Assembly (NCBI RefSeq): GCF_000253155.1
Contig: NC_015291.1
Location: 1,769,001 to 1,833,000 of the forward strand
Direction of reading: 5' to 3'
Source: Streptococcus oralis Uo5
GTDB taxonomy: Bacteria; Bacillota; Bacilli; Lactobacillales; Streptococcaceae
Length of the DNA: 64,000 nt
A model generated the notes under the pieces. It ran no database searches and had not been told where the DNA came from. It saw nothing but the letters and a program-made list of their open reading frames with translations. The position numbers and the translations under genes were made by a program. Below are positions 4,556-48,845 of the stretch, piece by piece. Numbering within the stretch: the first letter of the stretch is position 1; the number at the start of each line of letters is the position of its first letter.

Positions 4556-5053
4556 ATGAAACTCGCAGAAAAACTATTTGAGCTCCGAAAGGAAAAAGGT
4601 TGGTCCCAGGAAAAGCTAGCAGAACAAATCAATGTCTCTCGGCAAAGTATCTCCAAGTGGGAGTCTGGTCAAGTTCTTCCAGAAATCGAAAAAATCATTG
4701 AATTAAGCAAGATTTTTCAAGTGACAACTGACTATCTACTACTAGATGAAAACTCTGAAAAAACTTCTACAGAAGTGATTTTGGAGGAAGATAAGGACAA
4801 ATACTATAAAGAAGTTAAATCTTTTGGCCTCTGGCAAGTGATTTATATTTTCGTCTTAGCTCTGGCTATCTATCTCTTTTTAGCTGGTTCTAGTTTTCCA
4901 GCCGAGTTCACCGCCTGGATTTGGCTGACCTTCGTTCTTTTGATTGCTTCAGCGATTGCTATCAGCAAGACTCTCAAAACCAAACAACGTTATCTTGATA
5001 AAATGATTGGTCTTGAGAATCCCTCAAACCAAGACGACTCTATGAAACCTTGA
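4556..5053 (+). CDS. XRE-family regulator with C-terminal membrane segments
   Basis: 165 residues. Residues 1-65 form a Cro/CI-type helix-turn-helix ([20 protein letters not shown] and [16 protein letters not shown]). After a charged linker, two hydrophobic segments (about 98-116 and 123-141) suggest the regulator is held at the membrane, a form common in Firmicutes next to transporters. A strong AAAGGAGG precedes the ATG, with a good promoter upstream. It lies divergent from the LmrP-like transporter, so control of that transporter is a reasonable guess, but no operator is obvious. Confidence 0.85.
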
Positions 5054-5153
5054 GTCAATTGAATCATATTTCTCATTACTTTTTCTTGTCAAGCAAGTGT
5101 AAACCTCATGGCAAGTTGCCATGCCCATTCAAAATTCCCACCATAGAAAAGCT

Positions 5154-5187
5154 AAAAAGCCTTGTTTGGAAAAAACAAAGGCTTTTT
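5154..5187. terminator. Bidirectional terminator between XRE gene and mutL
   Basis: AAAAAGCCTTG pairs with CAAAGGCTTTTT. The U-tract potential on both strands suits two convergent genes. Confidence 0.85.
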
Positions 5188-5193
5188 GTGTTC

Positions 5194-7143
5194 TTAATAT
5201 TTCCCCAACTCACGGAGGCTAGTATGATTTTCCTGAATGCGTCGGAACATTTTTTCCATATCCGACTTGGTGAAATGCACCAAAACGGGACGTCCGTGGG
5301 GACAGTTATAGGGATTGTCGCATTGAGAGAGCTGATAGAGGAGTTGTCTGGCTGAGTGGTCATCGATGCGATGGTTTGCCTTGATAGACCGCTTGCAGGA
5401 CATCATGATAGCCAGCTCTGCTCGGTATTTCTTGATAGAAACTTCCTTGGTCAAAAGGAGCATGTCGCACATCTCATAGATGCCTGATTCAATCTCTTCT
5501 TCTGCCATCCAAATAGGATGTTCACGTAGGATAAATTGATTTTCTCCGTACTCTGCTAAAAAGACACCCACTTCCTCTAAGAGAGGCATTCTTTCCTTGA
5601 GACGAAGCGCATCATCCGCAGGAAATTCAAAGATGTAGGGCACTAGGAGTTGCTGCTGGCTCTGGTCAACATTGCCGATGCTTTCACGGTATTCCTCGTA
5701 CTTAACTCGTTCCTGGGCCGCGTGCTGGTCTATGATGTAGAGGCCATCTCGCCCTTGGGCAAAAAGATAGGTCCCGTGCATTTGTCCGAAAAACTCCAAC
5801 TCTGGGAAGCTGGATGATTCTTCTCGCTCCAGCTTGTCATAAGCCTTATCGAGGCTAGCAAGATCTAACTCTGGATGGTCCAATTGGTCATAGTTAGCAG
5901 GCTTTCTCTCTGCAAAATGCAGTTTTGCTGGCTTAGTCAATTGGTCCAAAGTTTCTTTAGCAAACAGGGTTAGGTCCCTACCCTCCTCAGTTAATTCAAC
6001 CTGGTGGTCAGCCACCTCAGCTTGACTAGGTTTTGAGAGTTCTGTTTTTTCATAGTAAAGCGTATTTTCTTTGAGTGGGAGAATGGTCTGCTCTACCTTT
6101 TGACGATTGCGCACGGTCGACTTGGCAAGATTTTCTAAAGCATCAGGAATCAAGGCTTGCTCCTTGAGACTATTTGAAATAGCCTCTGAAAGCAGCGCCA
6201 TCAGTTCTCTTTCCTTAGAAATCCGCACTTCTTGCTTGGTCGGATGCACATTGACATCTGCCAAATAAGGATCAATATGGATGTGAATGACAGCCAGTGG
6301 AAAACGCCCTACCATGAGCTTGCTTCCATAACCGTCAAGAATAGCACGGTTGAGTAGAAAGTTCTTGATATAACGGCCATTGATGAAGAGGCTGATATAG
6401 TTGCGATTTGCTCGGGTTAACTCAGGCAGAGACACAAAACCTGTAATTTCGAAATCTAAGTCAGAGTTCTCAATTTCAATCATCTTCTTAGCACTCACCA
6501 AACCGTAAATCCCTGCGATGGCTTGACGCAGTTGACCAGTCCCTGCTGTCCGCGTCATTTCCTTGCCATCACTGATTAAACTAAAAGAAATCTCGGGATG
6601 AGCCAAGCCCAGACGGTTGACAATATCAATGATATGAGACAGCTCCGCTTGCTGGCTCTTCATATACTTGAGACGGGCAGGTGTGTTGAAAAAGAGGTCT
6701 TCCACACAAACTTTGGTTCCTACAGGGCTAGTCGCTGGGATGACTTCCTCAACTTGACCTCCACGCGCGACTAACTTAGTCCCATGACTCGCACCATCCA
6801 CCGCCGTCAACAGAGTCAGCACACTGACAGAAGCGATAGAAGGCAGGGCTTCACCACGAAAACCAAGCGTCCGAATCCGAAAGAGGTCTGCCTGATTTTT
6901 TATCTTACTGGTCGCATGGCGACGCAAGGCCAACTCCACCTCATCGTGGGCAATTCCATGACCATTATCGGTGATTTGAATTTTCTTGAGACCAGCTTCC
7001 TCAATCTCAATGATAATCTGGCTAGAACCCGCGTCAATGGCATTTTCTACCAACTCTTTGACCACACTGGCAGGACGTTCGATAACCTCCCCTGCCGCGA
7101 TCTGGTTTGCTAACACTTCTGGCAATTCAATAATATGAGACAT
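5194..7143 (-). CDS. mutL: DNA mismatch repair protein MutL (HexB)
   Basis: 649 residues, normal length. The N-terminal GHKL ATPase shows Glu33 in [17 protein letters not shown] near 58 and GFRGEALPS near 94. The C-terminal half carries [14 protein letters not shown], the metal-binding endonuclease motif found in MutL proteins of bacteria that lack MutH. In streptococci the protein is called HexB. It links MutS mismatch recognition to strand removal and limits recombination between divergent DNA during transformation. It appears to head the mutL-MFS-ruvA-tag run, although 809 bases containing the XRE gene separate it from the MFS gene. mutS lies only 1.2 kb away beyond the LytTR pair. Confidence 0.97.
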
Positions 7144-40691: not shown

Positions 40692-40718
40692 ATCCTGTCG
40701 TCCCTTTCTATCGCGTCA

Positions 40719-41915
40719 CTACTCAACATTTTTCTGAACTTCTGAATAAACCTTAGTCGGAAGCCCCCAAAGCTTGATAAATCCAACAGCCGCATCTTGG
40801 TCAAAGGTATCCGCACTAGTATAAGTCGCCAGATTTTCATCGTAAAGAGAATTTGGAGATTTCCGCGCCACTACCTGGGCGTTTCCCTTGTAAAGTTTAA
40901 CTTTTGCAGTTCCATTGACAACTTTCTGTGTCTCCTTGATATAGGCAATCAAAGCCTGAGTTGCTGGGCTAAACCACAAGGCATTATAGATGAGATTGGA
41001 CAACTCATTTTCGATAATGGGTTTGAAATGAGCCACTTCTCTCACAAGAGTCAAGTCCTCAATCTCCTTATGAGCTGCCAATAAGGTCACAGCACCTGGG
41101 CACTCATAAATCTCTCTTGACTTAATACCGACTAGGCGATTTTCCACATGGTCAATACGACCAACACCGTGTTTGCCTGCAATTTCATTGAGCTTTTGAA
41201 TCAAAGCCGCCACTTTCATCTTTTCTCCATTGAGGGAAATGGGCACCCCACAGCTAAACTCAATGTCAATAAATTCTGGACTGTCTGGTGCCTCTTCTGG
41301 AGAAGATGTGATCCCAAATGCTTCTTCTGGCGCTTGGTTCCAAGGGTTTTCCAAGACACCACATTCATTTGCACGACCCCAAAGATTTTGATCGACAGAG
41401 TAAGGATTGTCAAGGTCAGCAGGAACTGGAACACCGTTTTCTTTGGCATATTGGATTTCTTCTTCACGAGACCATTTCCACTCACGAACAGGCGCAACTA
41501 CTTTTAAATTGGGATCCAAAGCCGCAATAGAGACTTCAAACCGAACTTGGTCGTTTCCCTTACCTGTACAACCATGGGCAATTGTGGTTGCCCCCGTCTG
41601 ATGAGCTATTTCAACGAGTTTTTTTGAAATAAGAGGGCGACTCAGAGCAGATACCAAGGGATACTTTTGTTCATAGTAGGCATGTGCCTGAAGGGCCACT
41701 AAAACATAGTCATTAGCGAATTCTTCCTTAACATCAATGACATAAGACTCTACAGCCCCAACCTTGAGAGCTTTATCGTGGATGAACTCCAAATCTTTTC
41801 CTTCACCCACATCCATACAAACAGCGATCACATCATAGTCTTTTTTTAACCATGTAATAGCAACTGATGTATCCAATCCACCTGAATAGGCTAAAATGAC
41901 CTTTTCCTTACTCAT
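40719..41915 (-). CDS. argG: Argininosuccinate synthase
   Basis: 398 residues. The N-terminal ATP pyrophosphatase motif [11 protein letters not shown] is near residue 9; [12 protein letters not shown] near 117 is the citrulline/aspartate-binding signature. It condenses citrulline and aspartate. It lies 15 bases after the binding-protein gene, indicating cotranscription under the ARG-box promoter upstream. Confidence 0.95.
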
Positions 41916-41930
41916 TTCTCTTCCTTCTTT

Positions 41931-42737
41931 CTATTTTTCGATAGAGGCTTTAAAAGCATCGTCAATCAATTTGTCCAACTCCCCAGAATCCTTCAACTTC
42001 TGGATGGTTTTGTCAACCGCCTCTTTTAATTCTTTACTGTCTTTTTTCATCGCAACAGCGTAGGAATCTTCTTTATCATTGTCAAAATCAAACTCAGCGA
42101 TGGCTAGGTCTGGATTATTCTCTACAAATCCTTTCGCCACTGGTTCTTCAAAGATAACCGCATCCAGTTGCCCTGATTTCAAATCTATTATCAAATTTCC
42201 ATTTTTAGGAAGTGAAACGAGAGAAGAAGCCTGCAAGGTTTCTTTAGCCAGAGTTTCCTGGATAGAACCTTTCTGCGCTCCAACCTTTTTCTGAGCCAAA
42301 TCCTTGACTGATTGGTAATTCGTTAATTCAGATTTTCTTACGATAACCTTATTTTTCGAAGTGTAGTAGGGAATTGAAAAATCGTAAACTTGACTTCTCT
42401 CTTCCGTTTTAGAAACACCTGATATGGCAAGATCGGCCTTGCCTGAATCAAGACTAGCCAGTACATTGTCAAAACTCATTGGAGAGAACTCCACTTCTAC
42501 ACCTAGTTCTTTTGCGATGGCTTTGGCTAGCTCAACATCTGAACCTACAATCTGATTTTTCCCATCGACCAATTTCTGATATTCAAATGGAGCAAACTCT
42601 GGATTTAGGGCCACCACCAATTTCCCTTTAGCCTTAATAGCTTCAACACCTTGGGATTGAGTGTTACTACAAGCAAATAATAAGGGGAACATAAGCAAAC
42701 CAAACATCGTCATCAACACCTTCTTCACTTTATTCAT
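41931..42737 (-). CDS. Amino-acid (probably arginine-related) binding lipoprotein
   Basis: 268 residues. The signal peptide ends in LLFAC (Cys about 23), a lipobox. The mature protein is a family 3 solute-binding protein (GKLVVALNPEFAPFEYQ and the following SDVELAKAIAKELGVEVEF). Being first in an operon with argG and argH, and with an ARG-box-like site at its promoter, it is likely to bind arginine, citrulline or ornithine. No permease is adjacent. AAAAGGAGG precedes the ATG. Confidence 0.85.
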   Translation of the reverse strand: MNKVKKVLMTMFGLLMFPLLFACSNTQSQGVEAIKAKGKLVVALNPEFAPFEYQKLVDGKNQIVGSDVELAKAIAKELGVEVEFSPMSFDNVLASLDSGKADLAISGVSKTEERSQVYDFSIPYYTSKNKVIVRKSELTNYQSVKDLAQKKVGAQKGSIQETLAKETLQASSLVSLPKNGNLIIDLKSGQLDAVIFEEPVAKGFVENNPDLAIAEFDFDNDKEDSYAVAMKKDSKELKEAVDKTIQKLKDSGELDKLIDDAFKASIEK

Positions 42738-42770
42738 AGAAGAGCCTCCTTTTATTTTTATACTTTATTA

Positions 42771-42807
42771 TTGTATAAATAATACTCCTCTCGTTTTCGT
42801 TTGTCAA
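42771..42807 (-). promoter_or_regulatory. Promoter of the argG-argH operon with ARG-box-like site
   Basis: On the minus strand: TTGACA (42807-42802), a 17-base spacer, and TATTAT (42784-42779). The -10 lies inside GTATTATTTATACA, an A/T-rich near-palindrome of the ARG-box type bound by ArgR/AhrC proteins. Repressor binding would block the -10 directly. Confidence 0.7.
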
Positions 42808-42843
42808 GGAAAAACTGTATTTTATTTCATTTTAATCAAGAAA

Positions 42844-42882
42844 AAGCTTATTATATGATATATTTTTACATATAATAAGCTT
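42844..42882 (-). terminator. Terminator of the bacteriocin operon
   Basis: Perfect 14-bp arms AAGCTTATTATATG and CATATAATAAGCTT. On the minus strand TTTC follows, about 85 bases after the ABC ATPase stop. It also insulates the arg operon promoter. Confidence 0.75.
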
Positions 42883-42965
42883 ATTTATACTATTTGGTTT
42901 TTTAAAAATACAATTGTCCAATTACAGGTAAGATGAAGAGTTCAACGAACTCTCCACATTCTCTT

Positions 42966-43595
42966 TCACAATTCAATGACTCGATGGCACTGTTCGGCCA
43001 CATAGGCATCGTGGGTAACGATAATGACCGTTTTCCCTTCCTTGTTCATATCTAAGAGAAAATTTAAAACCAAATCTCGATTTTCAGGATCTAGAGAACC
43101 GGTTGGTTCATCTGCTAAAAGGAGCTGACTCGGTTTTAAAATGGCTCTAGCAACTGCGATTCGTTGCTGTTCCCCTCCAGATAACTCTGAAACCTTCTGA
43201 TGTAGAGTTGATGACAATCCCACTCTCTCTAAAATTTCTTCTATCTTTTTGACTTTGTCCTTCTTGGATAATTTTACATACTTTAGAGCGAGCATGAGAT
43301 TATACTCTACTGTTTCATTATCAATCAGAGCAAAGTTTTGAAACAGATAGGAGATATGTTCGCGGATAATCGCTTGCGACTTAACAGAATTGACAGGTAC
43401 ATTTTGCTGACCGAAAATTTCATAATGTCCACTGTAATCGCCATCTATCAAACCCAAAAGATTTAACAAGGTTGACTTGCCACTGCCACTTTTTCCAACA
43501 ATGGCAACTAAATCTCCTTGGTTAATTTTTAGAGATAAGTTCTCCAAAATAACTTTTTCCCCAATGGTTTTCGTAACATTTTCCAACTTTATCAT
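42966..43595 (-). CDS. ABC transporter ATPase of the lactococcin-972-type locus
   Basis: 209 residues. Walker A VGKSGSGKST near 34, signature LSGGEQQR near 138 and Walker B LLLADEPTGSLD are intact. It is of the LolD/MacB-like small ATPase type that accompanies the 7-TM immunity protein in lactococcin-972-like clusters. It overlaps the upstream permease gene by four bases. Role: energising immunity or export of the bacteriocin, inferred from context. Confidence 0.85.
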   Translation of the reverse strand: MIKLENVTKTIGEKVILENLSLKINQGDLVAIVGKSGSGKSTLLNLLGLIDGDYSGHYEIFGQQNVPVNSVKSQAIIREHISYLFQNFALIDNETVEYNLMLALKYVKLSKKDKVKKIEEILERVGLSSTLHQKVSELSGGEQQRIAVARAILKPSQLLLADEPTGSLDPENRDLVLNFLLDMNKEGKTVIIVTHDAYVAEQCHRVIEL

Positions 43596-45700
43596 AAGTG
43601 ATCCCCTTTCAATAACTGCACTACATTTCGTTTTTCCATCTTAGAACCCAAGAAAAGCACAAACAGGATATCTAAGCCTGTAAATCCTGCAAAAAGTAGG
43701 AGCGGGAAAAGTGCCTGTGTAAAGAATAGCAGGGCTACAAAAGGAAGGCTATAGACAGCTAATAGAAGACCCAGCAAGGAACGATACCGATCTATCAATT
43801 TCCAGCCCATAAACTTCTTGGTAATAATATCTGTTCGCTTCAATAAGAAAGTTGTTACTAGTAAGAAGTAGGAAATCATCATACTAAGAAGACCAACCAA
43901 AGCAAAGAGTATGTTGAAATTCCGAACAGCATCTCGATAAGAATCTACTTTCTCTTGTTGAATGGCTTGAATAGATGAAAATTTTAAATAATTCCCATCT
44001 GATAATTTCTCAACTAACGCTGTCACCTCTTTTTGATGTTGAGCTGTATTTTCGATTTTAATGGGATTATTTAAACCTGTTGTTGACAGGGAAGCTTTTT
44101 CATCCCACATCATATCAGAATCATTGACCAAGCTAATAATTGGATTGTAGAGATTTTCCTTTCGCTTCTCGTTATAAGGGAAAAATGACCAATCTCCTTC
44201 ATAATAGGCAATCTCGACATCCACCTCCTCTATCCTTCGTTTTTGCTGCTCTTCATACTTCATTGATTGATAGGTAATCAACTTCCCCAAGAGCTGGTTT
44301 TTCTCTTCTTCACCTTTCGTACTTGCTGGCATCAAAATAACTTTTTTAGTGCCGGTATCGGGTAACTTGAATCCCTTGCTCTTTAGAAAATTGCGATTAG
44401 CATAGTACACATCCACCGTATCTGTTAACTGATATTGCTGAATCTGTTCTGATTTGACAAAATTTTTTACAGGAAGACTGCTACTTTGCACATAGCCCGC
44501 CTGCGTTTTTTCTACCAAATCCAGATAAAATCGATAGAAATAATCCACTGCTTGCCCTGAGCCTGCCAACTGCTCTTGCCACAGGTTATCATTGAGTTGG
44601 AAAGTTTCTAAGGTCAGATAATTTCCTTGACTGATCCACTGTTTCTGGTAATCCAACTCTTTGTTTTCTTGCTCCAAACTTTTCCCCACCCCAACTAGCA
44701 AGACTGTCAGTAAAATGGTAGTTCCAATTTTCATCAAATAATTAAAGAGTAAACCAAATTTGAAAGATGAAAAACCTTTCAGCAGAGAGCTGATTGTCAT
44801 TTTTTGGATTAAGAGATAAGTCAACCAACTGATAAAGAGATAAAGCTGCAAAAGCAAAAAATGAGACAACCACAGCATAGGGAACAAATCATTCGGCTTA
44901 TAATCAAGCAAGAAACACACTCCTAGATTGATCACAAGCGCCCCACCTAGGAGGAGGTAGAGGTTGCCTTTCACAACATCAGCTAAAACAGCCCGATCTT
45001 GAAAACCAAGTAATTTTTGTACCCCAACTCTTTTCATCTCCATCATCGGCTGATACACTGTTACTAAGACAAGAAGCAAAATAGCCAAGACAAAAATAAT
45101 AGCAGATAAGAGCAAATCTCGATTTAAGACTTCCACTGCACTTTTATAGTTTGGCTCTAGCAAGGTAGCCTGGTCTATATTGAAAAAATCGCTCCATTTC
45201 TGTACAATCCTATCCTTGTCCATCTTTTGTGTAGAAGTTATCGTATAGCGACCATTTAAACTACGAGATGTATCCTTGATATAGGTTTGAAAAGTCATAA
45301 GCTGAATAGGTTTGGCTTTTAGAAAGGTCGGAATCGTACCAAGTTTATTGGAAATTTCTTTATTACTGTAAACTCCCTCACCATCTGTGGTAAAATCAAG
45401 GGAAGAAAGTCCAAACTCTTGGTAGGGGAAGGTATCTTTATCAAAAACACCAGACTTGATCACCTCATCACCACTGTCTGTTTTGATGATGGAGACTTTG
45501 TACTCCTTTGATACATCCTCAAAAAATCGAAGAACAGATTCTGCAGGTTCATTGACATCTTTCAAGTATACATCCAAAGAACTCGCTGTCTTTCCCATTT
45601 CCTGAATCCGAACCACTTCTCGTGTGTAGTTTACATTAAAAACAAAAAAAGTAGTACAGAGAAGCAGGAGTAACATACAGAAATTACTGATTTTTTTCAT
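43592..45700 (-). CDS. Bacteriocin-associated integral membrane (immunity/permease) protein
   Basis: 702 residues. An N-terminal helix is followed by a long extracellular domain, then about three helices (near 195-300) and another large extracellular segment, with three helices at the C-terminus near 600-690. This matches the large bacteriocin-associated membrane proteins (DUF1430 type) encoded between lactococcin-972-like peptides and their ABC ATPases. It probably works with the ATPase at 42966 for immunity. It follows the bacteriocin gene after a hairpin that may reduce expression. Confidence 0.85.
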   Translation of the reverse strand: MKKISNFCMLLLLLCTTFFVFNVNYTREVVRIQEMGKTASSLDVYLKDVNEPAESVLRFFEDVSKEYKVSIIKTDSGDEVIKSGVFDKDTFPYQEFGLSSLDFTTDGEGVYSNKEISNKLGTIPTFLKAKPIQLMTFQTYIKDTSRSLNGRYTITSTQKMDKDRIVQKWSDFFNIDQATLLEPNYKSAVEVLNRDLLLSAIIFVLAILLLVLVTVYQPMMEMKRVGVQKLLGFQDRAVLADVVKGNLYLLLGGALVINLGVCFLLDYKPNDLFPMLWLSHFLLLQLYLFISWLTYLLIQKMTISSLLKGFSSFKFGLLFNYLMKIGTTILLTVLLVGVGKSLEQENKELDYQKQWISQGNYLTLETFQLNDNLWQEQLAGSGQAVDYFYRFYLDLVEKTQAGYVQSSSLPVKNFVKSEQIQQYQLTDTVDVYYANRNFLKSKGFKLPDTGTKKVILMPASTKGEEEKNQLLGKLITYQSMKYEEQQKRRIEEVDVEIAYYEGDWSFFPYNEKRKENLYNPIISLVNDSDMMWDEKASLSTTGLNNPIKIENTAQHQKEVTALVEKLSDGNYLKFSSIQAIQQEKVDSYRDAVRNFNILFALVGLLSMMISYFLLVTTFLLKRTDIITKKFMGWKLIDRYRSLLGLLLAVYSLPFVALLFFTQALFPLLLFAGFTGLDILFVLFLGSKMEKRNVVQLLKGDHL

Positions 45701-45722
45701 AAAGATACCTCCAATAAAGTTC

Positions 45723-45745
45723 TCCCTCTCCTAACAGGAGAGGGA
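45723..45745 (-). terminator. Intra-operon hairpin between bacteriocin and immunity genes
   Basis: TCCCTCTCCT and AGGAGAGGGA form a 10-bp stem with a three-base loop. There is no good T tract, so it may stabilise the bacteriocin mRNA 3' end or partly terminate, and so set a high bacteriocin to immunity ratio. Confidence 0.5.
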
Positions 45746-45754
45746 AAATTTCAC

Positions 45755-46039
45755 TTAAAATCCATAGAAATATTCTAATCCTGTTGGCGGAATTTTAGTA
45801 AGGGAAGCTTGAGCCCAAACCCCGGGAGTTTCACGATCCCTAGAGATTCTACCACCATGTCGGACTGTTGCTGTATGAGATCGAGTAGAATGTAAATAAT
45901 CAGAATATCCAAAAGTTCCTGTCCAACCTACTCCATAGTTCCATTGACCACCACCTACCCATACTGCCAAAACATTTGTAGTAGCAAGCAAACCACATGC
46001 CATTACGGTTGCTACACCAATTTTTACTAATTTTTTCAT
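45755..46039 (-). CDS. Lactococcin-972-family bacteriocin precursor
   Basis: 94 residues from MKKLVKIGVA. A Sec signal peptide (about 1-25, ending NVLA) precedes a mature Gly/Trp/aromatic-rich peptide with VGGGQWNYGV and the end GLEYFYGF. Lactococcin 972 is a Sec-secreted peptide that blocks septum formation by binding lipid II. GAGGAAAA supports the ATG at 46039. The open frame extends upstream to 46099 without a ribosome site. It is followed by its immunity and ABC genes. Confidence 0.85.
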   Translation of the reverse strand: MKKLVKIGVATVMACGLLATTNVLAVWVGGGQWNYGVGWTGTFGYSDYLHSTRSHTATVRHGGRISRDRETPGVWAQASLTKIPPTGLEYFYGF

Positions 46040-46068
46040 GATATTTTCCTCACATCTTATATCTTGAA

Positions 46069-46085
46069 CTGTTTCACAGAAACAG
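46069..46085 (-). other. Small hairpin in the bacteriocin 5' leader
   Basis: CTGTTTC-aca-GAAACAG, a 7-bp stem with a three-base loop, about 30 bases before the bacteriocin start. Just upstream, a seven-codon frame (46096-46119, MDFNVYK) with an AAGGAAGG site ends overlapping an ATG in the bacteriocin frame. Together they could form a leader-peptide or translation-coupling control. This is speculative. Confidence 0.3.
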
Positions 46086-46156
46086 ATGAATTGGTTCATT
46101 TGTAAACATTGAAGTCCATTGGACTCACCTTCCTTTCGTTTTACTTAATCAAAATT

Positions 46157-46234
46157 TTATAAGAGCCATCCCCAAGGGAAGAAAATAGCCAGCCATAATA
46201 TAAATAACAACAGATGATATACTTTTTTATACAT
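46157..46234 (-). CDS. Short hydrophobic peptide with C-terminal Trp-X-Trp, RtgS-like pheromone candidate
   Basis: A 25-codon frame absent from usual gene calls. AAGGGGG lies six bases before its ATG. The product starts MYKKVYH, has a hydrophobic core LLLFILWLAIF and ends FPWGWLL. The basic N-terminus, hydrophobic middle and Trp-Gly-Trp end fit Rgg-type pheromone precursors, in particular the Trp-X-Trp class known from pneumococcal RtgS. It diverges from an Rgg-type regulator gene and heads the bacteriocin operon. A TATAAT lies at 46265-46270 on the same strand, with a poor -35, as expected for an activator-dependent promoter. Not verified experimentally. Confidence 0.65.
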   Translation of the reverse strand: MYKKVYHLLLFILWLAIFFPWGWLL

Positions 46235-46296
46235 TTGGTACCCCCTTAGTACTTCATCATCTTGATTATAAAATACAATATACCTTGTCGTAAAAT

Positions 46297-46320
46297 TTGT
46301 TAACCTTTTTCACAAATTTA
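46297..46320. promoter_or_regulatory. Repeat copy 1, candidate regulator binding site
   Basis: TTTGTTAACCTTTTTCACAA plus AT. It lies 26 bases beyond the -10 of the peptide/bacteriocin promoter, centred near -50, where an Rgg activator would bind. A near-identical copy lies at 46384. Confidence 0.55.
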
Positions 46321-46383
46321 TTTTAGATTTCTTTTTTACTTTTTATTTTACTATGATACAATATTTTTAATCAATTTCTATTT

Positions 46384-46407
46384 TTTGTTAACTTTTTTCA
46401 CAAATAA
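46384..46407. promoter_or_regulatory. Repeat copy 2, candidate regulator binding site
   Basis: TTTGTTAACTTTTTTCACAA plus AT, one base different from copy 1 and in the same orientation, 87 bases away. It abuts the ribosome site of the Rgg-type gene, suggesting autoregulation. Confidence 0.5.
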
Positions 46408-46417
46408 GGAGGAAATC

Positions 46418-47284
46418 ATGCGCTACGATTTTGGAAATGTTTATAAAGAAATCCGTGAGTCAAAGGGGTTAACCCAAGAGGAGGTCTGTGGGGATGTTCT
46501 CTCAAGAACCAGCCTATCAAAAATCGAAAGCGGGAAAACAACTCCTAAATATGAAAATATGGAGTTTCTTCTTCGGCAAGTCAATATGACCTTTGAAGAG
46601 TTTGACTATATTTGCCATCTCTACCACCCAAGTGAACGATCAACTATCATGCAGACTTTTCTAAAAATGGCTTCTATTAGTGGTACGAGCGACTTAAGTA
46701 AATTACTCAAAAAATGCCAACATTATCTAAAAACACACCATGATTTCCCCATCCAGCAGTTACAAGATATGCTCGAAATCGTTATCTACATTCGTGAAAA
46801 TGGAATAGAAAAATTGTCAAGTAAGGTTGACAACATTGTAAACAGACTATGGGATAAGATTGAGAAACAAGATACTTGGTATGAGAGCGACCTCAAAGTT
46901 CTTAATACCATTCTCTTTGCTTTTCCTATGGAGTATATTCATCAGATTACCGAAAAAATTCTCGAACGACTAGAGGTTTATAAACACTACAGTCCTGTCT
47001 TTCGGCTTCGTATGATGTTGCTTCTGAATCTCTCAACTCTTTATCTTTACAATGGTGATAAGTTGCTTTGCAAACAGCTTTGCTACACTCTCTTAGAGGA
47101 TGCAAAAGCAAGCAAACAGTATGATACACTTGCGTTTTCCTATATTCGTATCGGCATTTGTGCTAATGATACTCAGTTGATACAGAATGGACTCTCCTTA
47201 GCTAAACTAGTAGAAGATGAACACTTACTAACAGAGCTAGAGCGAGAAGTTAACATCTTTGTAAACAAAAAAGAAAGCCATTGA
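46418..47284 (+). CDS. Rgg-type peptide-responsive regulator (RtgR-like)
   Basis: 288 residues from MRYDFGNVYK. The N-terminal helix-turn-helix (about 5-60) contains GLTQEEVCGDVLSRTSLSKI then ESGKTTPKYENMEFLL. The rest is alpha-helical, TPR-like, as in RRNPP/Rgg proteins that bind imported pheromones. The length and the final helices fit Rgg. AAGGAGG supports the start. Divergent from the Trp-X-Trp peptide frame and the bacteriocin operon, which it probably controls. Pneumococcal RtgR lies, as I recall, in the same arginine-gene neighbourhood, so orthology is likely but untested. Confidence 0.8.
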   Translation: MRYDFGNVYKEIRESKGLTQEEVCGDVLSRTSLSKIESGKTTPKYENMEFLLRQVNMTFEEFDYICHLYHPSERSTIMQTFLKMASISGTSDLSKLLKKCQHYLKTHHDFPIQQLQDMLEIVIYIRENGIEKLSSKVDNIVNRLWDKIEKQDTWYESDLKVLNTILFAFPMEYIHQITEKILERLEVYKHYSPVFRLRMMLLLNLSTLYLYNGDKLLCKQLCYTLLEDAKASKQYDTLAFSYIRIGICANDTQLIQNGLSLAKLVEDEHLLTELEREVNIFVNKKESH

Positions 47285-47305
47285 GACTTCCTTTTCTATA
47301 TCATC

Positions 47306-47932
47306 TTAATACCAACCGTTGTTAAGCCAGAAGTTCTTGGCAGCTGTCCATGAACCGTAACGTCCTGCAACGTAGGCATCTGCTACACGTTCTTGGTTTT
47401 CAGCTGAGTAGTCACCGTTCAAGTATGAATCTGTCAATTGGTAACGTCCGATGTAACGTCCGTTTGTAGCAGTGTAGCTACCACCTGATTCTTTTTGAGC
47501 GATCCATTCTTTGGCTTCTGCTTCAGAACCACTTACAGTAGAAGCTGCTGCAGTGTTGCTTTCTGCTGCTGAAGCTGCAGGAGCAGGTGCAGCTGGGGCT
47601 TCATAAGTTGTTGCTGCTGGAGCTTCTTCAACTGTTTCTGTAGCTACTGGAGCTGATTCTTCCGTTGTTGCTGCTGGAGCTACAGTAGAAGCTGTTCCTT
47701 CGATAACCAAAACTTGGTCAACATAGATAAGGTGAATATCTTTGATGTTGTTTTTTGCTGCCAATTTTTCAACAGTTGTGTTGTACTTCTCAGCGATTTC
47801 TGAAAGAGTATCACCTGATTTAACTGTGTAAGTTACAGTTTCTTGGGCAGATGCAAGTGATGGAGCAAAGAAAGCAAGCAAAGCTGCTACTCCTGCGATA
47901 GTTGTTTTAATTTTTTTAGTTGTTAATGACAT
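47306..47932 (-). CDS. Secreted LysM protein with C-terminal transglycosylase-like domain
   Basis: 208 residues from MSLTTKKIKT. A signal peptide (cut after SLASAQ) is followed by a LysM domain (about 30-75, YTVKSGDTLSEIAEKYNTTV), an Ala/Pro/Glu-rich linker, and a C-terminal domain (about 140-208) with AKEWIAQKESGGSYTATNGR, like the resuscitation-factor/lytic transglycosylase-type tails of staphylococcal SceD and streptococcal LysM proteins. The catalytic Glu is probably the E of KESGG. Acts in peptidoglycan turnover. The pneumococcal counterpart is tied to the WalRK regulon, but no full WalR box is evident here. Confidence 0.85.
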   Translation of the reverse strand: MSLTTKKIKTTIAGVAALLAFFAPSLASAQETVTYTVKSGDTLSEIAEKYNTTVEKLAAKNNIKDIHLIYVDQVLVIEGTASTVAPAATTEESAPVATETVEEAPAATTYEAPAAPAPAASAAESNTAAASTVSGSEAEAKEWIAQKESGGSYTATNGRYIGRYQLTDSYLNGDYSAENQERVADAYVAGRYGSWTAAKNFWLNNGWY

Positions 47933-47983
47933 ATCTAAAAATTCTCCTTCCATTGGATATATCTATGATACCTTTTAAATGTT

Positions 47984-48040
47984 ACCGTTGTTTAACGGTT
48001 TTATGTAGAAATATTACAAAAATGTTTTATATTTACCGTT
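47984..48040 (-). promoter_or_regulatory. ACCGTT/AACGGT inverted repeat upstream of the LysM gene
   Basis: ACCGTT-gttt-AACGGT at 47984-47999 is a perfect palindrome, and a third ACCGTT occurs at 48035-48040. They lie 50-110 bases upstream of the LysM start, in the promoter region. Possible binding sites of an unknown regulator. Confidence 0.4.
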
Positions 48041-48173
48041 TTAAGGAGGTTTTTGTCACAAAAGACCTTATTTTATACTAACTTTAATCATTTTAAGCTT
48101 TTGATAAGGGAAATAAGCGTAGCGGTCCATTCTTTGATATAATAGATATAAGAATCTTTGTAAGGGGAAACAG

Positions 48174-48845
48174 ATGCACTCACTTCGTTTTCAATCTGTC
48201 TTTGACATTATCGGACCAGTTATGATTGGCCCATCAAGTAGCCACACAGCTGGAGCTGTTCGCATCGGGAAAATCGTCTCTTCCATCTTTGACGATACGC
48301 CGACAGAAGTCGAATTCCAATTATTTAATTCATTTGCCAAAACCTACCGTGGTCATGGAACCGACCTTGCTCTCGTCGCTGGTATATTAGGTATGGATAC
48401 GGACGATCCCGACATTCCAAATAGCCTAGAGATTGCCCATAAACGTGGTATCAAGATTGTCTGGACCATTCAGAAAGACAGCAACGCTCCTCACCCTAAC
48501 ACCACTAAAATTACTGTGAAGAATGAACACAAGTCCATCAGTGTGACAGGAATTTCCATTGGTGGGGGAAATATCCAAGTTACGGAGCTTAACGGCTTTG
48601 CTGTCTCTCTCAACATGAATACCCCGACTATCATCATCGTGCATCAGGATGTTCCGGGTATGATTGCCCATGTCACAGAAGCCCTCTCTCGTTTCGATAT
48701 CAATATCGCTCAGATGAATGTGACTCGAGAAAAAGCTGGAGAAAAAGCCATTATGATTATCGAAGTCGATAGTCGAAGTTGCGAAGAGGCGATTAAAGAA
48801 ATTCGAAAAATCCCTCATCTCCACAATGTCAATTTCTTTAAGTAG
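48174..48845 (+). CDS. sdaAB: L-serine dehydratase, beta subunit
   Basis: 223 residues. The N-terminal catalytic-associated domain (SVFDIIGPVMIGPSSSHTAG near 8) carries the serine-binding SSSHTAG motif. A C-terminal ACT domain (about 145-222, TIIIVHQDVPGMIAHVTEAL) is regulatory. With SdaAA it makes the iron-sulfur serine dehydratase that converts L-serine to pyruvate and ammonia. An extended -10 (TGATATAAT at 48135-48143) is upstream. sdaAA follows after eight bases. Confidence 0.94.
   Translation: MHSLRFQSVFDIIGPVMIGPSSSHTAGAVRIGKIVSSIFDDTPTEVEFQLFNSFAKTYRGHGTDLALVAGILGMDTDDPDIPNSLEIAHKRGIKIVWTIQKDSNAPHPNTTKITVKNEHKSISVTGISIGGGNIQVTELNGFAVSLNMNTPTIIIVHQDVPGMIAHVTEALSRFDINIAQMNVTREKAGEKAIMIIEVDSRSCEEAIKEIRKIPHLHNVNFFK

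Follow-up and report, generated by a model that had tools for sequence, protein, structure and literature searches.

Gene organization of the locus

The locus lies in a 64-kb stretch of DNA that was analysed as a whole and is referred to here as the window. Its features, with positions in the window, are:

46418..47284, plus strand: RtgR-like Rgg/RRNPP regulator of 288 aa (assigned by Pfam, tree and fold model), with an HTH domain (residues about 1-68) and a helical repeat part (residues 69-288) presumed to bind the peptide
46384..46404, no strand assigned: operator-like repeat 2, TTTGTTAACTTTTTTCACAAA, just ahead of the ribosome site of the regulator gene
46296..46316, no strand assigned: operator-like repeat 1, an imperfect inverted repeat reading TTTGTTAACCTTTTTCACAAA, immediately upstream of the promoter of the pheromone operon
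46265..46294, minus strand: sigma-70-like promoter of the pheromone operon, TTTACG - 18 - TATAAT, matching 10 of 12 consensus positions
46157..46234, minus strand: candidate WxW pre-pheromone of 25 codons, reading MYKKVYHLLLFILWLAIFFPWGWLL
46096..46119, minus strand: 7-codon mini-frame MDFNVYK with a strong ribosome site, between pheromone and bacteriocin
45755..46039, minus strand: lactococcin-972-family bacteriocin of 94 aa with a signal-like N terminus (PF09683, TIGR01653)
45720..45748, minus strand: hairpin of 13 pairs with a weak T tail, a possible attenuator, between the bacteriocin and membrane-protein genes
43592..45700, minus strand: bacteriocin-associated integral membrane protein of 702 aa, putative immunity (TIGR01654, 685.6 bits)
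42966..43595, minus strand: lactococcin-972-type ABC transporter ATPase of 209 aa, putative immunity or export (TIGR03608, 294.4 bits, cut-off 254.85)

The ATG of the 25-codon frame is preceded by the ribosome-site-like stretch AAGGGGG. Its product is very hydrophobic, contains neither Asp nor Glu and carries W-G-W near the C terminus; by analogy with RtgS, the active part is predicted to comprise the last 7-10 residues, AIFFPWGWLL. Both strands of the 64-kb window were scanned for frames of 18-40 codons with a ribosome site and a W-x-W motif within the last seven residues, and only this frame was recovered. Such a frame arose by chance in 14 of 20,000 first-order Markov copies of the intergenic stretch. 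An earlier note on this DNA had described a 25-codon frame with ribosome site and W-x-W tail, placed head to head with the regulator gene and ahead of the bacteriocin gene. The layout was found as described, and the frame is regarded as real, being the sole one of its kind in the window and kept by relatives. Its end is separated from the start of the bacteriocin gene (46039) by 117 bases.

The bacteriocin scored 75.2 bits against PF09683 (cut-off 22) and 78.1 bits against TIGR01653 (cut-off 32.1), and it is the single PF09683 match of the genome. The locus thus shows the features of the lactococcin 972 family, a model score above the curated cut-off and, following the bacteriocin gene, genes for a membrane protein and an ABC transporter. 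The bacteriocin is putatively antibacterial. In the region 45700-46450 one terminator-like hairpin was detected, located after the bacteriocin gene, with 0.5 expected in shuffled sequences.

The mini-frame MDFNVYK resembles rio97 (MDYDTC) of S. pneumoniae D39 in its leader and its place. According to the published account, ribosome profiling revealed rio97 between spv_2096 and spv_0106, and it was one of the six frames with the most start-codon reads, which were picked for tagging (PMC9426450). The block GGAAGGTGAGTCCAATGG or a close form of it occurs together with short frames in L043, L045, L048, L055, L056, L060, L117 and L158, and the frames after the block differ among these loci; its version in L056, L060, L117 and L158 consists of the same 21 bases as that of rio97. 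The bacteriocin frame itself remains open for 20 further codons upstream (45755-46099, minus strand), where an ATG at 46099 overlaps the stop codon of the mini-frame. At L036 the usual start codon of the bacteriocin gene is gone, while the longer frame is still open.

Relationship of the regulator to RtgR

Analysis of the regulator with Pfam gave a match to HTH_3 above the cut-off, while Rgg_C stayed below it (24.2 bits versus 27). The label 'Rgg-type' used in the earlier note therefore rests mainly on tree and fold, which both agree with it. The AlphaFold model (pLDDT 75.5, pTM 0.61) is predicted to have the RRNPP fold, and its matches among solved structures found by Foldseek include ComR, Rgg2, Rgg3, Rgg144, PrgX and PlcR. 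Relatives of the regulator at E 1e-20 or better were found in 75 of 147 Streptococcus genomes. The window genome itself contains three other matches with 20-22% identity and no second close relative.

In a quick tree of 79 rows, calculated with SH-aLRT support and no bootstrap and from which regulator fragments were excluded, the window regulator fell into a clade of six rows (SH-aLRT 99). This clade is sister to 36 rows, and the joint clade of 42 rows was again supported with SH-aLRT 99. L034, L035, L037 and L038 had been left out as presumed duplicates, which was borne out for the last three; L034 (G232) is a genome of its own, and it does not differ from L043 over the stretch compared, which covered part of the regulator and part of the upstream region. 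Among the 36 sister rows is L061, with a divergent 28-residue peptide that ends in AIIFPWGWPI and has Ser 14 and Pro 27, and with a Peptidase_C39 ABC transporter behind it. Since the published RtgS-A decapeptide likewise reads AIIFPWGWPI (PMC7018657), we took L061 as RtgR on account of these type-A RtgS features and of the transporter. By this phylogeny, the window regulator is a sister of pneumococcal RtgR. The likeness to RtgR/RtgS noticed earlier therefore extends from the peptide tails (AIFFPWGWLL versus AIIFPWGWPI) to the regulators.

Operator-like repeats and promoter

The 21-base repeat TTTGTTAACnTTTTTCACAAA has two exact sites genome-wide, both within this intergenic stretch. A scan of the genome disclosed one further site with three mismatches, and the reversed-pattern control gave none. 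Both repeats are found at the same distances in 5/5 window-type genomes with bacteriocin, repeat 2 differing by a single base in L043, L034 and L036. A related repeat resides at about -117 in L061 and most other pheromone-bearing sister loci, in a diverged form at L046 and below the search pattern at L050. As strict operator regular expressions missed such variants of the sister loci, the DNA of 30 loci was read directly. The promoter at 46294-46265, which adjoins repeat 1 on its downstream side, was the best of seven promoter-like sites in 45700-46450, compared with 3.2 in shuffled sequences. An Rfam scan of 40700-48200 gave no match at gathering scores.

Conservation and joint absence of peptide and bacteriocin

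Regulators at least 95% identical to that of the window occur in eight of 284 Streptococcus genomes, the next best relative showing 70%. In five of the eight a bacteriocin gene (92-100% identity) is adjacent, always together with the peptide and both repeats; these are the genomes with the window-type tails FPWGWLL or FPWGWFL (G000, G189, G032, G232 and G215). In G189 (L197) the peptide is identical and the bacteriocin 100% identical, while L043/L034 and L036 harbor variants of the peptide. The earlier note had named one outcome of such a comparison as contrary to its proposal, namely close relatives with regulator and bacteriocin but without the frame; this was seen in 0/5. The remaining three genomes (G034, G084 and G085, corresponding to L042, L044 and L045) have no bacteriocin at this site. 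L042 and L044 lack a peptide frame, and L045 contains a frame ending in FPWRWPM that is devoid of a ribosome site.

For the peptide, conservation of W-x-W together with third-position variation had been expected. The first was confirmed: F-P-W-x-W is kept in 9/9 distinct coding sequences compared, while most other residues vary. The second was obtained only in part, as most pairs of sister-group frames showed a third-position excess, whereas the window-type frames revealed 0 synonymous versus 4-7 non-synonymous codon differences, few in number. Taken alone, the result for the window-type frames either speaks against coding constraint or carries little information. Their penultimate residue is Leu or Phe.

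To cover the genus, we searched for F-P-W-x-W followed by two residues and a TAA or TGA stop, a pattern blind to TAG-ended frames. Of the 284 Streptococcus genomes, 28 gave a match, against five matches in four genomes for the reversed control; by coordinates, 23 of the 28 lie next to an intact or broken RtgR-clade regulator gene. The matches in G006, G073, G132, G182 and G255, where no RtgR-clade regulator was found at E 1e-100, may be due to chance. At E 1e-100 or better, RtgR-clade regulators occupy 64 places in 61 of the 284 genomes, and at 14 of the 64 a PF09683 gene lies divergently within 3 kb. The end of a F-P-W-x-W frame was located just upstream of the regulator at 12 of these 14 places; in the two exceptions, G129 and G201, a PlcR-type regulator lies in between. 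Without a PF09683 gene, the pattern was present at 9/50 places, including the broken G085 frame. Fisher's test of 12/14 against 9/50 gave 6e-6, which ignores relatedness and is indicative only. Moreover, the pheromone sits between regulator and bacteriocin, so that one deletion can remove both; for both reasons, the value overstates independence.

A table of 51 fetched loci was compiled from regulator-fetched loci and nine peptide-fetched rows, without fragments and with the broken regulator L075. In it, 20 loci contained a W-x-W frame with ribosome site, and Fisher's test gave 9e-5 (7/8 versus 4/34). The fetched loci omit 17 genomes with 64-70% identical regulators, one of which (G201) was added afterwards; the peptide pattern was absent from all 17. 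Peptide-like matches at the low-identity loci L105, L107, L109, L110 and L112 looked like chance frames and were not counted.

At L042, L044, L047 and L049 the pheromone, the bacteriocin and the -10 region are lost, and the membrane-protein gene adjoins the operator. L039 has lost pheromone and bacteriocin as well, with the -10 region kept and repeat 1 slightly altered. Furthermore, only about 60-91 C-terminal regulator residues were matched, next to the LysM gene, in G050, G077, G103 and G118 (L114-L116 and L118). These pieces are 83-91% identical to the window-type regulator and probably are remnants of a lost system.

Comparison with known systems

RtgR/S of S. pneumoniae has been published with a cargo of PCAT (RtgAB) and double-glycine peptides (PMC7018657). 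The window shares with it an RtgR-clade regulator, a divergent short pre-peptide with F-P-W-G-W tail and without Asp or Glu, and repeats before the pheromone promoter. It differs in the part of the regulator behind the HTH (61% identical), in the penultimate residue of the pheromone (Leu or Phe, where RtgS has Pro), and in the cargo. The genes next to the pheromone match lactococcin_972, TIGR01654 and TIGR03608 and not PCAT or double-glycine peptides, in agreement with the earlier view that the cargo is a different one. By its gene content the locus is not an rtg locus; an RtgR/S-type pair with another cargo is what is new. An Rgg/WxW group consisting of RtgR, SPD_1518 and SSA_2251 has been proposed, its members being left to future work (PMC7018657). 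As judged from the sequence, the window possesses the features of this group, namely an HTH plus helical-repeat regulator grouping with RtgR, a divergent WxW pre-peptide and an inverted repeat at the promoter.

Two of its members can be compared with the window. Rgg1518/rio84 (SHP1518) of S. pneumoniae also has a divergent WxW pheromone followed by a 7-codon frame, rio83, which is reported to act negatively; of the rio84 peptide, the C12 form was active and C6 and C8 were inactive (PMC9426450). It differs by a 43% identical regulator (L098, typed by its peptide) and an ABC-transporter cargo. SSA_2251 of S. sanguinis, as named in PMC7018657, has a WxW pheromone too; its regulator is about 46% identical and the tail is PWWWxW. 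An SHP/Rgg pair was excluded, as the window peptide lacks the conserved Asp or Glu of SHP pheromones, and ComRS was excluded because of the divergent orientation and the W-G-W motif of the window pair. For ComRS, comS is reported not to be divergent from comR, with a WW motif in some XIPs (PMC7018657).

Pheromone control of this type of bacteriocin already has a precedent in ScbR/SIP of the streptococcin B locus of S. pseudopneumoniae, described as ComR-type and Ami-dependent (PMC11796350). Both systems combine an RRNPP regulator and a short Trp-rich peptide with a lactococcin-972-like operon, but ScbR/SIP has a WW motif (end GDWWHG), a peptide gene downstream of the regulator gene and a ComR-type promoter motif. 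Streptococcins A-E of pneumococcus show bacteriocin, immunity and transporter genes in the order of the window, and in the available part of that report no WxW pheromone is named for them (PMC6120550). The control of streptococcins A, C and D has been termed unclear (PMC11796350). For the streptococcin loci of S. mitis and S. oralis, RpoD-type promoters are described, and for the blp and cab loci quorum-sensing sites (PMC11921387). SP_0109, a member of the lactococcin 972 family, is listed as present in S. oralis Uo5 (PMC6722419). A literature link between a WxW pheromone and a lactococcin-972-type operon was not found in the accessible text of the papers cited here and of PMC5729180, PMC13361665 and PMC7595303.

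Proposed regulation and alternative explanations

The genes, the operator-like repeats, the promoter-like site, their conservation, the phylogeny and the joint absence of peptide and bacteriocin are all observed. On this basis we consider it highly probable that the locus is an RtgR/S-type Rgg/WxW quorum-sensing pair with a lactococcin-972-type (streptococcin) operon as its cargo. Expression, export, maturation, binding, activation, quorum control and killing would then be connected as follows. A PptAB-type system would export the 25-residue pre-peptide, of which trimming would leave roughly the last 7-10 residues. The mature peptide would accumulate outside the cell and be re-imported by an Ami-type oligopeptide permease. 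EcsB/PptB-like, oligopeptide-binding and M50 peptidase families are present in the window genome, as family-level matches. Inside the cell, the 46418 regulator would bind the peptide through its helical-repeat part and, sitting on the TTTGTTAACnTTTTTCACAAA repeats, would activate the 46294-46265 promoter. The activation would raise the pheromone (autoinduction), the mini-peptide and the bacteriocin and, past the hairpin, also the membrane and ABC immunity genes. Some points count against this proposal. The codon differences of the window-type frames, though few, are all non-synonymous, and the penultimate residue is Leu or Phe rather than Pro, a residue reported to matter for pneumococcal RtgR (PMC7018657).

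The control of streptococcin-type operons is partly called unclear; if the proposal holds, the locus would provide one of them with a concrete signal and regulator that can be tested at low cost. In addition, the cargo of the Rgg/WxW group, so far of the double-glycine and ABC kinds, would come to include lactococcin-972-type bacteriocins.

The regulator could instead be mainly a pheromone-relieved repressor, the unliganded protein blocking the promoter and the peptide lifting this block. Some Rgg proteins do repress, and operator-like repeats are located close to promoter-like sites on both strands. However, repeat 1 lies upstream of the -35 region and does not cover the region from -10 to the start, the -35 region is weak, and deletion of rtgR abolished rtg activation in pneumococcus (PMC7018657), which makes repression as the main mode of action very unlikely. 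Even less probable is that the locus is a silent or decaying remnant, in which frame and regulator are intact and the circuit no longer fires. Such decay does exist among relatives, as seen in L042, L044, L047 and L049, in the L045 frame without ribosome site, and in the four genomes that retain only a C-terminal piece of the regulator. Nevertheless, the window contains no broken part, all parts are kept in 5/5 window-type genomes with bacteriocin, and a lactococcin-972 cluster of S. oralis Uo5 was reported to be expressed in oral biofilm (PMC6284299). Least probable of all, the frame would encode a small membrane or leader peptide without signalling and the bacteriocin would be controlled by competence, as the streptococcin B operon is in most pneumococci (PMC11796350), or by a PlcR-type regulator as in L158, L160, L067 and L210; the very hydrophobic sequence would fit this, but F-P-W-x-W is kept while most else changes, a peptide of proven activity in pneumococcus has a similar tail, and the window site contains no PlcR-type gene.

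Conserved core and diverged receptor part

Within the preferred reading of an activating pheromone-receptor pair, the distribution of changes along the regulator is of interest. Compared with L061, the window regulator is 70% identical overall, with 62/68 identical residues (91%) in positions 1-68 and 133/218 (61%) in positions 69-286. Nine other sister-clade regulators gave 90-96% for residues 1-68 and 60-63% for the rest, while five comparisons within the window clade gave 91-96% for the first part and 96-99% for the rest. Between six window-clade and ten sister-clade rows 32 fixed differences were counted, none of which affected residues 1-68. At the DNA level (eight loci), the region between about -120 and +200 relative to the regulator start forms a conserved core, with a diverged pheromone on one side and a diverged receptor part on the other. 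Working peptide frames split along with the receptors into GW[LF]L (25 residues) and xWP[IM] (28 residues). Exceptions are FPWKWLI in L206, whose regulator is 68% identical, and the broken FPWRWPM of L045, which accompanies a window-type regulator.

We favour recombination as the explanation, with a joint change of pheromone and receptor part around a DNA-recognition core that stays the same. As a wider and only tentative proposal, to be taken as a whole and a little short of even in our estimate, the RtgR-type WxW systems of mitis-group streptococci might form a recombining plug-in module. Operator and DNA-binding domain would be fixed, whereas pheromone and receptor part would co-change into the dialects FPWGW[LF]L and FPWxWP[IM]. 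The cargo would be exchangeable and often of the lactococcin-972 type, the mini-frame would be a regulatory part, and relatives with receptor, operator-like site and immunity genes only would raise immunity by eavesdropping. The two receptors, with the same DNA-binding part, a different remainder and a different pheromone, would represent a natural pair for studying how receptors tell dialects apart, which also bears on whether pneumococcal RtgR hears the commensal signal.

Other regulators and cargo at related loci

At the site between argG and the LysM gene, L158, L160, L067 and L210 carry a 285-residue regulator upstream of a similar bacteriocin gene. It matches HTH_3, and RNPP_C below the cut-off (21.3 versus 26.5), and is here termed PlcR-type. 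Thus, WxW control is not universal for this bacteriocin. In L158 (4423; 4573-5430) the PlcR-type regulator is followed by a 47-residue secreted-peptide-like frame, possibly an alternative control module.

The 147 genomes contain 54 PF09683 genes, 14 of which have an RtgR-like regulator or its remnant in divergent orientation at a distance of up to 3 kb, compared with an expectation of about 0.3 for 6 kb; the majority of lactococcin-972-type genes in the genus therefore have no such regulator beside them. These 14 include G129, with a PlcR-type gene in between, and one truncated regulator (G039). Five of them adjoin distant regulators (36-39% identical), where a W-x-W pheromone was not recognised. 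Regulators of 35-39% identity, divergent from lactococcin-972-type genes, were noted at L105, L106, L110, L161 and L100, and the peptide of L106 contains GGGWVIIW instead of WxW.

In the wider family, the cargo of WxW pheromones comprises a Peptidase_C39 ABC transporter (L061), an operon with an ABC ATPase (L098) and secreted-looking proteins (L048, L083 and L087). L080, L081 and L088 possess S. sanguinis-type pheromones, FPWWWxW or LPWWWPW. In L080 and L081, whose peptide is nearly that of SSA_2251 or related to it, the pheromone is followed by genes for a small secreted protein of the WNYGV type, a large protein of membrane type and an ABC ATPase. The L080 ATPase scored 235.9 bits against TIGR03608 (cut-off 254.85); its cargo protein had no PF09683 or TIGR01653 match and its membrane protein no NCBIfam match. 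Profile comparison, the only link of the L080 cargo to lactococcin 972, gave a probability of 92.5% over 48 columns. Because of the missing Pfam and NCBIfam matches and the weak profile match, the S. sanguinis-type cargo was not counted as lactococcin 972 family, though the small secreted protein is possibly a distant relative.

In related genomes, argG is flanked by RtgR-clade regulators on one side or on both. At L040, L057 (second copy), L058, L063 and L065-L067, the divergent side of such a regulator is occupied by a conserved protein of 195 residues; there, no WxW peptide was found and repeat 1 could not be made out. On that side, a hydrophobic peptide of 37 residues can be read in L040 and L058. 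The genomes of L053, L057 and L058 each contain two RtgR-clade regulators, which flank argG.
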